Shown: positions 891 through 20,128 of the stretch, piece by piece
Position numbering within the stretch: the stretch's first letter is position 1
Layout: the number at the start of each line of letters is the position of its first letter
DNA from: Nitrospinales bacterium
GTDB taxonomy: Bacteria > Nitrospinota_A > UBA7883 > JACRGQ01
DNA: 40,299 bases
Direction: 5' to 3'
Assembly: GCA_023248535.1 (NCBI GenBank)
Contig: JAHFEJ010000023.1
Span: 1-40,299 of the forward strand
Notes under the pieces: generated by a model
Database searches by the model: none
Told to the model about the DNA's origin: nothing
What the model saw: only the letters and a program-made list of their open reading frames with translations
Translations under genes and position numbers: made by a program

Positions 891-1896
891 GTCCGAAGTG
901 GTGACGTTGGCGCACGGCGGCGGCGGCACGGCCAGCGCGGAACTGGTGGCGCGCGTCTTCCTGCCGCATTTTGACAATGACTTTTTGAAATCGCTCTCCG
1001 ATGGCGCGCTTCTGCCGCCGATAAACGGGCGGATGGCCGTCTCGACCGATTCGTTCGTCATCGATCCGATATTTTTCCCCGGCGGCAACATCGGCTCGCT
1101 GGCGGTGCACGGCACGGTGAACGACGTATCGATGTGCGGCGCATCGCCCCTTTACCTCACCGCAGGATTCATTATCGAAGAAGGGATGCTGATAAGCGAC
1201 CTGAAAGAGATCGCCGCCAGCATGGGGGCGGCCGCGCGCGAAGCGGGGGTTCGCATCGTGGCGGGGGATACCAAGGTGGTGGCGCGCGGCGGGGCCGACA
1301 AGATATTCATCAACACCGCCGGTATCGGCGTGGTGCCGGAAGGCGTTACCATCGGCGCGCAGCGGGTACGGGCGGGGGACAAGATCATCCTCAGCGGCAG
1401 CATCGGCGATCACGGCATCTCGGTATTGATAAAACGGAAGGGGCTGAAGTTCGACGCGAACATCCTTTCGGATTCGCGCCCGCTGAACGGCATAGTGAAG
1501 AAGATGCTGGAGGCGGAGCCGGACATCCACATGATGCGCGACCCGACGCGCGGCGGGCTGGCGGCGGTGTTGTGCGAAGTGGCGCGGCAGGGGAACGTGG
1601 GCATTTTGATAGAAGAACAGAAGATACCGGTGCTGGAAGATGTGCGCGGCGTCTGCGAACTGCTGGGGATGGATGTGATGCATGTGGCCAACGAGGGGAA
1701 AGTGATCGCCTTCGTGCCAGAGAGATCGGCCGGCAAAGTGCTGGCCGCCATGCGCGCCCACCCCTACGGCAAAGAGGCGGTCGTCATCGGCACGGTGGGA
1801 ACGGTTGCGCCGGGCCGGGTGGAGATGAAGACCGGATTTTCCGGCAACCGCATCATCGAGCCGCTCGTCGGCGACCAGCTCCCCCGTATTTGCTAA
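883..1896 (+). CDS. hypE: HypE, carbamoyl dehydratase of hydrogenase maturation
   Basis: HypE takes the carbamoyl group from HypF on its C-terminal cysteine and dehydrates it with ATP to a thiocyanate, the CN donor for the hydrogenase iron. At 337 residues it has family length. The N-terminal HGGGG signature, the AIR-synthase-like ATP-binding fold (DSFVIDPIFFPGGNIG, VHGTVNDVSM, RDPTRGGLA) and above all the C-terminal PRIC, whose last residue is the modified cysteine, are all present. The start at 883 overlaps the end of hypD. The stop overlaps by a few bases the stop of the convergent pentapeptide gene, so no terminator separates them. Confidence 0.97.
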   Translation: MPKSEVVTLAHGGGGTASAELVARVFLPHFDNDFLKSLSDGALLPPINGRMAVSTDSFVIDPIFFPGGNIGSLAVHGTVNDVSMCGASPLYLTAGFIIEEGMLISDLKEIAASMGAAAREAGVRIVAGDTKVVARGGADKIFINTAGIGVVPEGVTIGAQRVRAGDKIILSGSIGDHGISVLIKRKGLKFDANILSDSRPLNGIVKKMLEAEPDIHMMRDPTRGGLAAVLCEVARQGNVGILIEEQKIPVLEDVRGVCELLGMDVMHVANEGKVIAFVPERSAGKVLAAMRAHPYGKEAVVIGTVGTVAPGRVEMKTGFSGNRIIEPLVGDQLPRIC

Positions 1897-2921
1897 TTAC
1901 TATTTTGTTGCTTCTTCCAATCTTGAAATTTCTTCCAGTTTTCGAGCGCCTTAAAATTGTTCAGGCCCTCAGGCAGGATGGTCTTTTCATCAAACATTGC
2001 TGTATCAATTTGTCCCTGTGTTAAACCGAGAGTCTCATCCAAATTGGCCACTTCAAACCGCGCCTCTTGCAGATTGGCCTGATTAAACCGTGCCTTTTGC
2101 AAAAAGGCCATTGTAAACTGTGCCCATTGAAGATTCGCCATTTCAAAGTGTGCTGACTGAAGATTGGCCTTTTCAAAGTTTGCCGATTTAAGATTTGCGT
2201 TGAAAAAGTGTGCATCTTGCAAATCGGCCAGTTCAAACCGCGCCCTTTGCAGATTGGCATGGGAAAACATTGCCTTTCGCAGAGTGGCATGCCTAAAATC
2301 AACGTTTCTCAAATCTGTTTTAAAAAGATTGATAGTTTGCCCTTCAATTTCTCTTTCATGCTTTCTTCTAAGCAGAACCGTCATAATCGCTTCAAGGTCT
2401 AATGGCACTGCATCCCCCCGCTTTGGTTCTACACCTTCTTTCCAGGGATACTTGTCGCGTACATAGGCGGTGAGGACTTCCATTACCTGCCAATGATAAT
2501 CAGGCGAATCGTGCGCTATCTTTTCTAGCGCGTAAATCGCTCCCAACTGCAATTGAAGCTCTGTTTTACCAAGTTGCTCAATTGCTTTGGTGAAGCGATC
2601 GGTTATCTGCCCCCGCTCGGTCACTCTAAGCGTCTCCTCGGCAACCGTCTGCCGCCTGAAAGCAAGGTAGATGCCGATCAAAACAAACAGGCCGCCAAAG
2701 ATTTGCGCCAGCGTTTTTCGGGCTTCGTTTTCTATTTCAAAAAGTTCTTTGGCCTTTAATGGCTCCGCAACTACATTCTCGCGCTGGGTTGAAGAGATAA
2801 GGGAACGAAAATGGTCGGCCTGCCACTTGGGGATGCCGTAGAGCGCGCCGATAACAATGTAGGCGACAGCGAGACCGATATAAAATTGCCAAGGGGGGAG
2901 CCAGGATTTTTTGTTATCCAT
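1893..2921 (-). CDS. Membrane-anchored pentapeptide-repeat protein
   Basis: I place the start at 2921 (MDNKKSWLPPWQFYIG), giving 342 residues; the frame stays open further upstream but runs into repeat DNA with no coding character. Two membrane segments lie at about residues 10-28 (FYIGLAVAYIVIGALYG) and 75-95 (IFGGLFVLIGIYLAF). A conserved linker follows (ERGQITDRFTKAIEQLG, then LGAIYALEKIAHDSPDYHW), and the C-terminal third is a right-handed helix of A(N/D)LxxA(R/H/N)F pentapeptide repeats. This architecture recurs in many bacteria with no firm function; the repeat half is probably a protein-interaction surface in the cytoplasm. A TATACT box lies about 8 bases before the ATG and no good ribosome-binding site is visible, so the message may be nearly leaderless. 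Confidence 0.85.
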   Translation of the reverse strand: MDNKKSWLPPWQFYIGLAVAYIVIGALYGIPKWQADHFRSLISSTQRENVVAEPLKAKELFEIENEARKTLAQIFGGLFVLIGIYLAFRRQTVAEETLRVTERGQITDRFTKAIEQLGKTELQLQLGAIYALEKIAHDSPDYHWQVMEVLTAYVRDKYPWKEGVEPKRGDAVPLDLEAIMTVLLRRKHEREIEGQTINLFKTDLRNVDFRHATLRKAMFSHANLQRARFELADLQDAHFFNANLKSANFEKANLQSAHFEMANLQWAQFTMAFLQKARFNQANLQEARFEVANLDETLGLTQGQIDTAMFDEKTILPEGLNNFKALENWKKFQDWKKQQNSN

Positions 2922-2984
2922 GCCGTACAGTATAGCTTTCCCCACCGCCATTGGGTAGCCCAAGATGGGCATGGCCCTGAAAGG

Positions 2985-3203
2985 ACATGTTGCCCCTTCG
3001 GGACAAGACGGACAGGAGTGTCCGTCCCACCAAAGAACAGCCGGTGCTCCTTCCATCCCACCAAGAGAAGCAGAGCGGCCATTTCCCAGGTGGCGCGGAC
3101 ACTCTTGTCCGCGTTGCTCCGCAAGGAGCAAGCCCTATTGAACATGTTACCCCTCCGGGGCAAGACGGACAGGAGTGTCCGTCCCACCAAGAACAGCCGG
3201 CGC
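2985..3203. repeat. Tandem hairpin-rich interspersed repeat, units 1 and 2a
   Basis: Two copies of a unit of about 157 bp begin at 2985 and 3142 with acatgtt. Each contains a small hairpin (CCC-TTCG-GGG-like, at about 2993 and 3150), the palindrome ACGGACA-GGAG-TGTCCGT, cccacca, and acagccgg. The first unit also carries CGCGGACA-CTCT-TGTCCGCG at 3094-3113 followed by GCTCC-GCAA-GGAGC. A related unit lies at 11201-11315. The second unit is interrupted at 3204 by a MITE and resumes at 3470. Open frames here on either strand come from the repeat and are not genes. Confidence 0.85.
3194..3203 (+). repeat. Left target-site duplication of the MITE
   Basis: CAGCCGGCGC, identical to 3470-3479 on the other side of the element. 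Confidence 0.88.
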
Positions 3204-3469
3204 CAGGGCAATCGCATTAAAATAACTCAAATAAATTGAGGTATTGGCAATTAAAGCCAATGATTTTCGGCGTACTTTCGTTTTTACGTTTGTTTGCTAC
3301 GTGGGTACAGGCACTTTTGCACGCACATAGGGTGCAAAGCACTGAGAAAGGTTACGACTCTGCGGTAATGTACCGGGAGGAATGCCTGTACCGCCAAGAA
3401 ACAAGTGCAAAATAGACATTTTTAAGGGATTTTGAGAATAATGCAGGTTATTTTAATGCGATTGCCCTG
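3204..3469. mobile_element. 266-bp MITE with 23-bp perfect inverted ends
   Basis: The ends are a perfect 23-bp inverted repeat (3204-3226, starting CAGGGCAATCGCATTAAAAT, and 3447-3469). Directly outside, CAGCCGGCGC occurs at both 3194-3203 and 3470-3479, a 10-bp target duplication. The uninterrupted target survives as the sister repeat copy at 3038-3047 (CAGCCGGTGC followed by the same tccttccatcccaccaagaga), so the insertion can be read directly. No transposase is encoded; a full-size element elsewhere must have mobilised it. A 10-bp duplication would suit the IS4 superfamily, but I could not confirm the family. Inside, 3304-3313 and 3383-3392 form a 10-bp stem enclosing smaller stems. Confidence 0.9.
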
Positions 3470-3479
3470 CAGCCGGCGC
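3470..3479 (+). repeat. Right target-site duplication of the MITE
   Basis: CAGCCGGCGC, identical to 3194-3203; the split repeat unit continues from here to about 3502, about 20 bases before the TPR gene. Confidence 0.88.
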
Positions 3480-3522
3480 TCCTTCCATCCCACCAAGAGA
3501 GGCGGAATGTTACAATGACCGG

Positions 3523-5217
3523 ATGGCGGAACAACCAAAAGACCCGAAGACGGCGTCAGGGCGGATAAAAATCCCCTCCCCCGACCTTCTCAAAAACCTG
3601 CCGGTCAAGCAGCGGCTGCCGATGCAGTACGCCCACAAGCTGGAGTACCTGCGCGAGAACTACCGGCACATCTATATCAAGTTCGAGACCGCGGGGATCA
3701 CGACCGACCTCACCGATGTGCTGGCAAAATCCGGGTTCCTCCCCCACCCGCAGCCCGACCAGAAAATAAAGGTGCTCATCCACAACATCATCAAGTGGCT
3801 GGACGGCGGCAACCTGCTGATCCTCCACTTCCGGCCGAAGTTCACCGAATTTAATGTGGTGAACCTTCTGCGCGAGATAAAGCTGGCCGCCCCCGCATGC
3901 AAATTCGAGGGGCTGGTGCCTGTCTTTTTCGGCGTGGTCAGCAGCTCCAAACAGATGGAGCTGTTCAAGCATCTCGGCGCGTTCGGCATACGGTATGTTT
4001 TTTTCCTCACACCCGGCGGCACGCCCGATCATACGCTGCAGGAGATCATGGAAGAGCTGGAAAAATTCAACGGGATGCTGCACGCGCAAAGCAGCACCGG
4101 CAAAATCTCCGGGCTGGACCTGGGAGACGATTACGAAGAAGAGCCGGCGAAGGTAAAAAGTTACAAGGAACTGGTGGCGCAAGGGGAAGCGGCGCTGGCG
4201 GAAGGGAATTACGAAGAGGCAATCGGCTTTTTCAGCCAGGCGATCGAACTGGGGCCGAACTTTGAGGCCCTGATGGACCGGGGAGACGCCTATTACAAAA
4301 CACGCAAATATATGCCGGCCCTGAAGGATTACCGCGAGGCGGCGCGCCTGGAAAAAAACGCGCCCGCGCCGTACGCCAGGATCGGGGAGTGTTGCCTTGT
4401 TTTGGTGACCGCCGCGATGAAGGCCGGGGAGCCGGCCAAGGCGAAGCAGTGGTTCGCGGACGGCATGTTGAACCTGCGGCAGGCCGCCGGCCAGGTGAAC
4501 AAGATGGAAGACGACAACCTGCAGACCCCCGAAAACCTGCCGCCGATCCCGTATGCCCCGATATTGGCGGCGCTGGCGGCGGCGGACATCCGCGGGCTGG
4601 GGCTTGCCGCCGAGGAAGAAGAGATGACCGCCTTCGCCAAGATGGCGCTGGAGAAAATCCGCTCGCGGGGGGAGATGATCTCCGACGTGAGCGCCGAGAC
4701 CCGCATCGAAGAGGCCGTGCTGCTGGCCCGTTACGGGCAGTACCGCGAGGCCGAAAAAATATTCCGCGAAGTCATCGCCGAAGACGTGGAACACGCCGGG
4801 CCGGCCTTCAACAATTTCGCGGTGGAACTGCGGAAGAACGGGCAGCATGGCAAGGCATTTGAAATTTACCGCGAATTGCTCCGCCTCGATATACCGGACC
4901 GGGACATCGTGATGGAGAACATGAAAAACGCCGGCCTGCGCCACGCCGCCGAGTTGAAGAAAGCGGGGCGCGCGGACGAGGCGGCGGACGTGTACCGCGC
5001 CGTGCTGGCCGCCCGTCCCGTGGACCGCGAATGGATTCTCTGCGATCTGGCGCTCATCTGCCTGGCGATGGACGACCGGGCGCAGGCCTCGCTCACGCTG
5101 ATGGAAGCGCTCTATATCAATCCGAAGCTGATGGAGGGGCCCCGGTTCGAGCCGTACAAGGAGTTGGCCGGACTGCGCGACGAGATGATGAAAAGGCTGA
5201 AAGATAGCGGGGGGTGA
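3523..5217 (+). CDS. TPR protein with N-terminal receiver-like region
   Basis: 564 residues, no signal peptide or membrane segment, so probably cytoplasmic. Residues about 60-190 look like an alpha/beta domain (KVLIHNII, NLLILHFRP, FEGLVPVFFGV, GIRYVFFLTPG) whose hydrophobic strands resemble a response-regulator fold, but I see no phosphoacceptor motif. From about residue 208 there are tetratricopeptide repeats (AALAEGNYEEAIGFFSQAIELGPN, RKYMPALKDYREAARLEKN, GQYREAEKIFREVI, GQHGKAFEIYRELLRLD), interrupted by a longer insert at about 290-370. The function is unknown; TPRs imply a protein-binding scaffold. The start lies about 50 bp downstream of the MITE, so its promoter region may be altered by the insertion. 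Confidence 0.85.
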   Translation: MAEQPKDPKTASGRIKIPSPDLLKNLPVKQRLPMQYAHKLEYLRENYRHIYIKFETAGITTDLTDVLAKSGFLPHPQPDQKIKVLIHNIIKWLDGGNLLILHFRPKFTEFNVVNLLREIKLAAPACKFEGLVPVFFGVVSSSKQMELFKHLGAFGIRYVFFLTPGGTPDHTLQEIMEELEKFNGMLHAQSSTGKISGLDLGDDYEEEPAKVKSYKELVAQGEAALAEGNYEEAIGFFSQAIELGPNFEALMDRGDAYYKTRKYMPALKDYREAARLEKNAPAPYARIGECCLVLVTAAMKAGEPAKAKQWFADGMLNLRQAAGQVNKMEDDNLQTPENLPPIPYAPILAALAAADIRGLGLAAEEEEMTAFAKMALEKIRSRGEMISDVSAETRIEEAVLLARYGQYREAEKIFREVIAEDVEHAGPAFNNFAVELRKNGQHGKAFEIYRELLRLDIPDRDIVMENMKNAGLRHAAELKKAGRADEAADVYRAVLAARPVDREWILCDLALICLAMDDRAQASLTLMEALYINPKLMEGPRFEPYKELAGLRDEMMKRLKDSGG

Positions 5218-19382: not shown

Positions 19383-20128
19383 AGCAAAGACAAGCGGTCG
19401 AATTTGATCGTCCGATTTACCTTAGAGAATCCGGCGAAGATGATTCAGTTATCCAGTTTGGAAAGCCTCCCGAACATGTAAAAGAAGATCACGAAAATGG
19501 CGTTTCCAGGTTTGGGGGACTTTGGAGAGAACCGGATTATGTACAAACATACCTTCGAGCCTCCAGCATTTTAGTAGCAGAATCTAGAGAGAGAAATGAC
19601 CTGGATAATCTTGGGTTGCCAATATTCTATTTACAGCGCCACACCATTGAGTTGTTTTTAAAAAGTCTTTTGTCGCATCTATATGATATTGCAAAAATGA
19701 AGCATGAAATTTACTGCACCAGCGAACCGCAAGATTGCCTGCCAACAAAAGAACAAGAAGAAAGATTAGCAGGAAAATATAAGGGACACGACCTTTGTCT
19801 TTTTTGGGCCGACTTTTCATCAGCTTCAAATAAGCTAGGGTTTGGCGACCCGCCAAATGAATTGGGCAATTTGATTAAAGATATAAGCGCATACGAGAAT
19901 ATCCACCATACTTGGTCGCGTTATTCTTCTCACGCTGAAAGGAAAACTGGGGTGCTCATATCGCACAGCAAAAGTGAGGTTGCCATTCCTGTAGTTGATA
20001 TTCAAAACCGCATTGAAAAAGTTATAGGCGGCATTGAATATAAAATGGGTTCCGACCCGAAGAGTTATGCAACGATTCTCTATGATGAATGGAAATCGTT
20101 ATCCGATAGGTTGGAAGATTTGGGGTAA
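19379..20128 (+). CDS. HEPN-like helical protein (second)
   Basis: 249 residues, start in an ATGA overlap. YLRASSILVAESRERNDLDNLGLPIFYLQRHTIELFLKSLLSHL, then GHDLCLFWADF and ENIHHTWSRYSSHAERK, follow the pattern (F-Y-RH-x-IE-x-x-LK-x-L; HDL-x-x-LW; RY) of a broad group of helical HEPN-related proteins of unknown function common in accessory regions. There is no membrane segment. Its stop codon lies inside one of a pair of direct repeats (20122-20151), so the C-terminus may have been reset by a rearrangement. Confidence 0.7.
   Translation: MKQRQAVEFDRPIYLRESGEDDSVIQFGKPPEHVKEDHENGVSRFGGLWREPDYVQTYLRASSILVAESRERNDLDNLGLPIFYLQRHTIELFLKSLLSHLYDIAKMKHEIYCTSEPQDCLPTKEQEERLAGKYKGHDLCLFWADFSSASNKLGFGDPPNELGNLIKDISAYENIHHTWSRYSSHAERKTGVLISHSKSEVAIPVVDIQNRIEKVIGGIEYKMGSDPKSYATILYDEWKSLSDRLEDLG

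Follow-up and report, generated by a model that had tools for sequence, protein, structure and literature searches.

The element described here lies in a 40.3-kb stretch of DNA from a Nitrospinales bacterium (40,299 nucleotides, analysed as a whole and referred to below as the window). It is located between two divergent genes, which encode a pentapeptide-repeat protein (1896–2921, minus strand) and a TPR protein (3523–5217, plus strand). The start codon of the latter is 53 bp downstream of the element, and HypD- and HypE-like genes are found upstream of this locus. The features of the region are as follows.

2985–3074, plus strand: uninterrupted sister of a ~90-bp repeat unit, the paralogous empty site, with the target CAGCCGGTGC at 3038–3047; 92% over 89 bp
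3142–3203, plus strand: left part of the interrupted repeat unit, which holds the palindromic core GACGGACAGGAGTGTCCGTC of an intergenic repeat
3194–3203, plus strand: left copy of the 10-bp direct target duplication, CAGCCGGCGC
3204–3469, no strand assigned: putative ISAs1-type non-autonomous (MITE-like) element, 266 bp, 41% GC, without a transposase remnant
3204–3226, plus strand: left terminal inverted repeat CAGGGCAATCGCATTAAAATAAC, the first 18–20 bases of which are those of ISAs1-family insertion sequence ends
3304–3392, plus strand: inner imperfect inverted repeat GGTACAGGCA ... TGCCTGTACC, without an Rfam match
3447–3469, minus strand: right terminal inverted repeat, a perfect reverse complement of the left one
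3470–3479, plus strand: right copy of the 10-bp direct target duplication, CAGCCGGCGC
3470–3506, plus strand: right part of the interrupted repeat unit

The first-pass annotation of this sequence had described a 266-bp element with 23-bp perfect inverted ends and a 10-bp duplication, and this description is correct to the base. In the whole 40.3-kb window, the ends of the element form the sole inverted pair of at least 16 bases whose members lie no more than 3 kb apart. By arithmetic estimate, perfect 23-bp pairs this close together would be expected by chance about 2 × 10⁻⁶ times per window, and the adjoining 10-bp repeat about 1 × 10⁻⁶ times. The element is AT-richer than its surroundings, with a GC content of 41% against 60% for the intergenic DNA around it. 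No transposase remnant was detected by tblastn inside the 266 bp.

The insertion point can be compared with the sister copy of the interrupted repeat. After removal of the insert and of one copy of the duplication, the unit matches 2985–3074 at 92% over 89 bp, ungapped at the insertion point. The 10-bp target reads CAGCCGGCGC at the insertion and CAGCCGGTGC in the sister, with one base different. Because of this difference the sister represents the empty site as a near paralogue, without being identical to it, and the earlier claim of a paralogous empty site holds with this qualification. The palindromic core GACGGACAGGAGTGTCCGTC is part of an intergenic repeat of which the genome contains about 20 partial copies. 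A REP-like intergenic palindromic repeat with the core GACGGACAGGAGTGTCCGTCCCACC was observed at 2985–3033, at 3142–3190 and in about 18 more places in the genome. In the nearest relative, a genome of the same genus (G002, L145), the TPR gene directly follows the HypE-like gene, and the whole segment corresponding to 1897–3522, including the pentapeptide-repeat gene, the repeats and the element, is missing. Since the whole segment is missing, this locus of the relative does not offer an orthologous empty site that could be compared base by base. Apart from a possible influence on the gene that starts 53 bp downstream, no effect of the insertion on the host is evident.

The host genome is a draft of 2.87 Mb in 132 contigs with an estimated completeness of 98%. 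The search of this genome with the element and with its 23-bp end, which the first-pass annotation had proposed, returned no other copies: the element is single-copy, and no further 23-bp ends were found at up to three mismatches. Copies of the element were likewise not detected in 96 other genomes at mixed distances or in 23 other genomes of the phylum, and the comparison with plasmid and phage records gave nothing above chance. One match was obtained in a distant genome (G069, L005); it falls within a coding gene resembling phosphoglycerate mutase and was attributed to chance. Two interior 17–18-mers recovered from viral contigs were also rejected, as they show no similarity past the word itself. 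One exact ISAs1-type end is present near the edge of an IMG/VR viral contig (L008, 103–122), beside phage tail-like genes and without a partner end.

The search for a full-length insertion sequence with the same ends, also suggested in the first-pass annotation, was successful outside the host genome and led to the ISAs1 family. A scan of GTDB contigs located the exact terminal 20-mer in at least 116 bacterial genome stretches, spread over many phyla; chance alone would yield about 0.5. The hosts among the matches listed include Zetaproteobacteria, Gammaproteobacteria, Cyanobacteria, Planctomycetota, Chlamydiota, SAR324, Hydrogenedentes, Bacteroidota, Chloroflexota and Desulfobacterales. The ISAs1-type end sequence is CAGGGCAATCGCATTAAA. 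Complete insertion sequences with both of these ends and 10-bp target duplications were recovered from Paraglaciecola (1213 bp, in several copies), Rhabdochlamydia (1231 bp), Crocosphaera (1497 bp) and Methylobacter (1694 bp, in which the transposase match is split in two pieces). An insertion sequence of 1333 bp from Mariprofundus has the same ends and no target duplication. The transposases of Paraglaciecola and Mariprofundus score 397–398 and 407 bits, respectively, with the ISAs1 model NF033564, and both also match Pfam PF13808 and PF01609. The first 18–20 terminal bases of the 1213-bp element of Paraglaciecola sp. MB-3u-78 (L014, 5320–6532) are identical to those of the window element, and the two are alike in their CAGGG ends and 10-bp target duplications. 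In contrast to this insertion sequence, the window element is only 266 bp long, has no transposase gene and shares nothing with it inside the ends.

The same ends also delimit non-autonomous elements of 117–558 bp with exact 10-bp target duplications in at least six kinds of host. These are Bermanella (278 and 353 bp), Mariprofundaceae (228 and 558 bp), Rhabdochlamydia (117 bp), Crocosphaera (127 bp), Methylobacter (244 bp) and an unclassified proteobacterium. The elements of the five named hosts resemble the window element in ends, size class, target duplication and lack of coding sequence; their interiors are unrelated to it. Those of at least Bermanella and Crocosphaera are multi-copy, whereas the window element is single. 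The 127-bp element of Crocosphaera watsonii WH 8501 was observed in several copies in C-/G-rich tracts (L022, L041, L069, L073, L085, L089, L097). Interiors that resemble one another are confined to a single host or to a few related hosts. BLAST detected no similarity between the window element and any recovered element in the sequence next to the ~20-bp ends. Additional end pairs without an intact duplication were also found. Among 33 end pairs, the flanking repeat is exactly 10 bp long in 15, 5 bp in one and missing in 17. The last group comprises ends that may not belong to a single insertion, copies lying adjacent or in tandem (Paraglaciecola, L072), and pairs with near-matching flanks (for example, L110 and L085, one mismatch in 10).

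The window element is short, non-coding and bounded by terminal inverted repeats. Its target is duplicated as CAGCCGGCGC on both sides and has an uninterrupted paralogue, and its ends are common to a known insertion sequence family, namely ISAs1, complete copies of which carry the NF033564 transposase. Multiple genomic copies, which are usual for MITEs and not strictly required, were not found, with one copy present in the draft genome. The earlier designation as a MITE is therefore appropriate for a non-autonomous element of this type with a target duplication and a paralogous empty site, but not in the strict multi-copy sense. Since the element is single-copy in a draft, in which further copies may be collapsed or unbinned, it is more safely called 'MITE-like' or an 'ISAs1-type non-autonomous element'. 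Members of the ISAs1 family have target duplications of about 8–10 bp. The CAGGG-type ends and the 10-bp duplication of the window element are those of the complete copies; an ISAs1 DDE transposase gene was found neither in the element nor in the genome. Judged by its sequence, the element would be ISAs1-derived or ISAs1-mobilised and not an ISAs1 insertion sequence. This putative link to the family is drawn from the ends and the length of the duplication.

The first-pass annotation had further suggested that an active transposase is present elsewhere in the genome. This suggestion found no support: neither PF13808 nor NF033564 matches any gene of the 132-contig, 98%-complete draft, which may have lost an insertion sequence or left one unbinned. 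In ten relatives from the genus and family, NF033564 likewise detected no ISAs1 transposase, and no copy of the ends was found there. The only PF01609 (DDE_Tnp_1) gene of the host genome belongs to a frameshifted IS5-like copy, which adjoins an intact-looking IS30 transposase gene (L196; G000:C117, ~19551–19979). No living transposase source for the element is visible in the host. An ISAs1 transposase was likewise not found in 8 of 20 other end-bearing genomes, a figure that should not be over-read because these are mostly drafts, from which insertion sequences are often lost. A genome from another family of the same class (G018) contains decayed ISAs1 transposase fragments that score below the cut-off, as well as six such ends at no more than one mismatch, one of them directly behind the relic of an ISAs1 transposase C-terminus. 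These fragments and ends show that the ISAs1 family has reached this class. A 443-bp end pair in the same genome (L215, 1076–1518) was rejected as a copy of the window element, as it has imperfect ends and no target duplication.

We propose that the sequence at 3204–3469 is very probably an ISAs1-type MITE, a non-autonomous element inserted by a trans-acting ISAs1 transposase. In the proposed mechanism, an ISAs1-family DDE transposase supplied in trans would bind the ~20-bp terminal repeats of the element. The element would then insert into one copy of the duplicated intergenic unit between the genes at 1896–2921 and 3523–5217, and the filling-in of a 10-bp staggered cut would generate the target duplication. 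The ISAs1 transposase is the likely agent of this insertion. Presumably its source was lost afterwards, was never resident and only arrived transiently with a mobile element, or escaped the draft assembly. The first-pass annotation had taken the perfect ends as a sign of recent movement; the intact ends and the exact duplication fit an undecayed insertion, but they give no date.

Alternatively, a specific ISAs1 insertion sequence might have decayed or undergone internal deletion to leave the element, which would then be a relic instead of a mobile MITE. Internal deletion is the usual origin of such miniature elements, the ends are ISAs1 ends, and decayed ISAs1 pieces are present in the same class (G018). 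We consider this explanation unlikely, as tblastn reveals no transposase remnant in the 266 bp and the subterminal sequence is unlike that of any recovered insertion sequence. The perfect 23-bp ends and the exact duplication imply either that the element moved in its present form or that it was deleted without decay of its ends. Because nothing is common beyond the ~20-bp ends, any origin of the element through internal deletion of a particular insertion sequence would be conjectural.

It is considerably less probable that the MITE belongs to some other transposase family whose ends are similar, for instance one that makes 9–10-bp duplications. The assignment to ISAs1 by ends and duplication length is indirect, no transposase in the genome settles it, and the sole DDE_Tnp_1 gene there is the frameshifted IS5-like one beside the IS30 gene. 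Nevertheless, all complete elements recovered with such ends carry an ISAs1 transposase gene, and nothing connects IS5 or IS30 to these ends.

The inner inverted repeat is weak in this element. It has 10-bp perfect arms, which are reached by 6 of 200 shuffles, and folds somewhat better than shuffled sequences (z −2.7). An Rfam scan of 2900–3600 gave sub-threshold chance matches only. A captured host repeat was considered as its source and rejected, since the genome contains just one other occurrence of TACAGGCA-N-TGCCTGTA, which does not amount to a host family. Among other ISAs1-ended elements, inner palindromes are strong in those of Bermanella and in one of Mariprofundaceae and absent in others; for this reason they are not a defining feature of such miniature elements. 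Similar inner palindromes, GTCATCCCCGAATGC...ATGACG, were observed in ISAs1-ended elements of Mariprofundaceae and another proteobacterium (L030, L043, L086, L080, L046, L012). That the whole element is a host-made structure (a regulatory RNA, terminator or palindromic repeat) merely resembling a transposon is hardly credible: the folding of the inner repeat, the position 53 bp upstream of a start codon and one sigma-70-like match inside the element (chance mean 0.5) would fit, but the exact duplication and the interrupted paralogue already contradict it, no relevant Rfam match exists, the element is missing from all relatives searched, its GC content departs from that of the surrounding intergenic DNA, and its ends are identical to insertion sequence ends.

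A published precedent exists for a miniature element that has only its ends in common with the presumed parent. MITEAba12 of Acinetobacter is non-autonomous, shares only the terminal repeats with its presumed parental insertion sequence and is mobilised by ISAba12 (PMC6382973). It differs from the window element in its many copies, 9-bp target duplications and co-resident parental insertion sequence (PMC6382973), whereas the latter is single-copy, with a 10-bp duplication and no resident source. A description of ISAs1-derived MITEs was not found in the literature searched, mostly without subscription papers and without ISfinder, and no priority is claimed.

The window element is a single, new example of a known element type. 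It is mildly unusual in being single-copy, in having no source present and in sharing only about 20 bp with its counterparts across phyla. As a broader and tentative idea, which we regard as possible if rather doubtful, the ~20-bp ISAs1 end may act as a self-sufficient mobility signal that has repeatedly packaged unrelated non-coding DNA in many phyla. Such elements could pass between lineages without a transposase, and the one found here would be a lone passenger with no resident driver. The locus provides one well-defined insertion with its pre- and post-insertion states side by side. It also draws attention to ISAs1-ended miniature elements as a large group that seems to have been little described and has only the terminal 18–20 bp in common. 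Mobilisation of the lone element by an ISAs1 transposase, if it occurs, would show how little sequence is needed for mobility and how survival without a resident transposase works.
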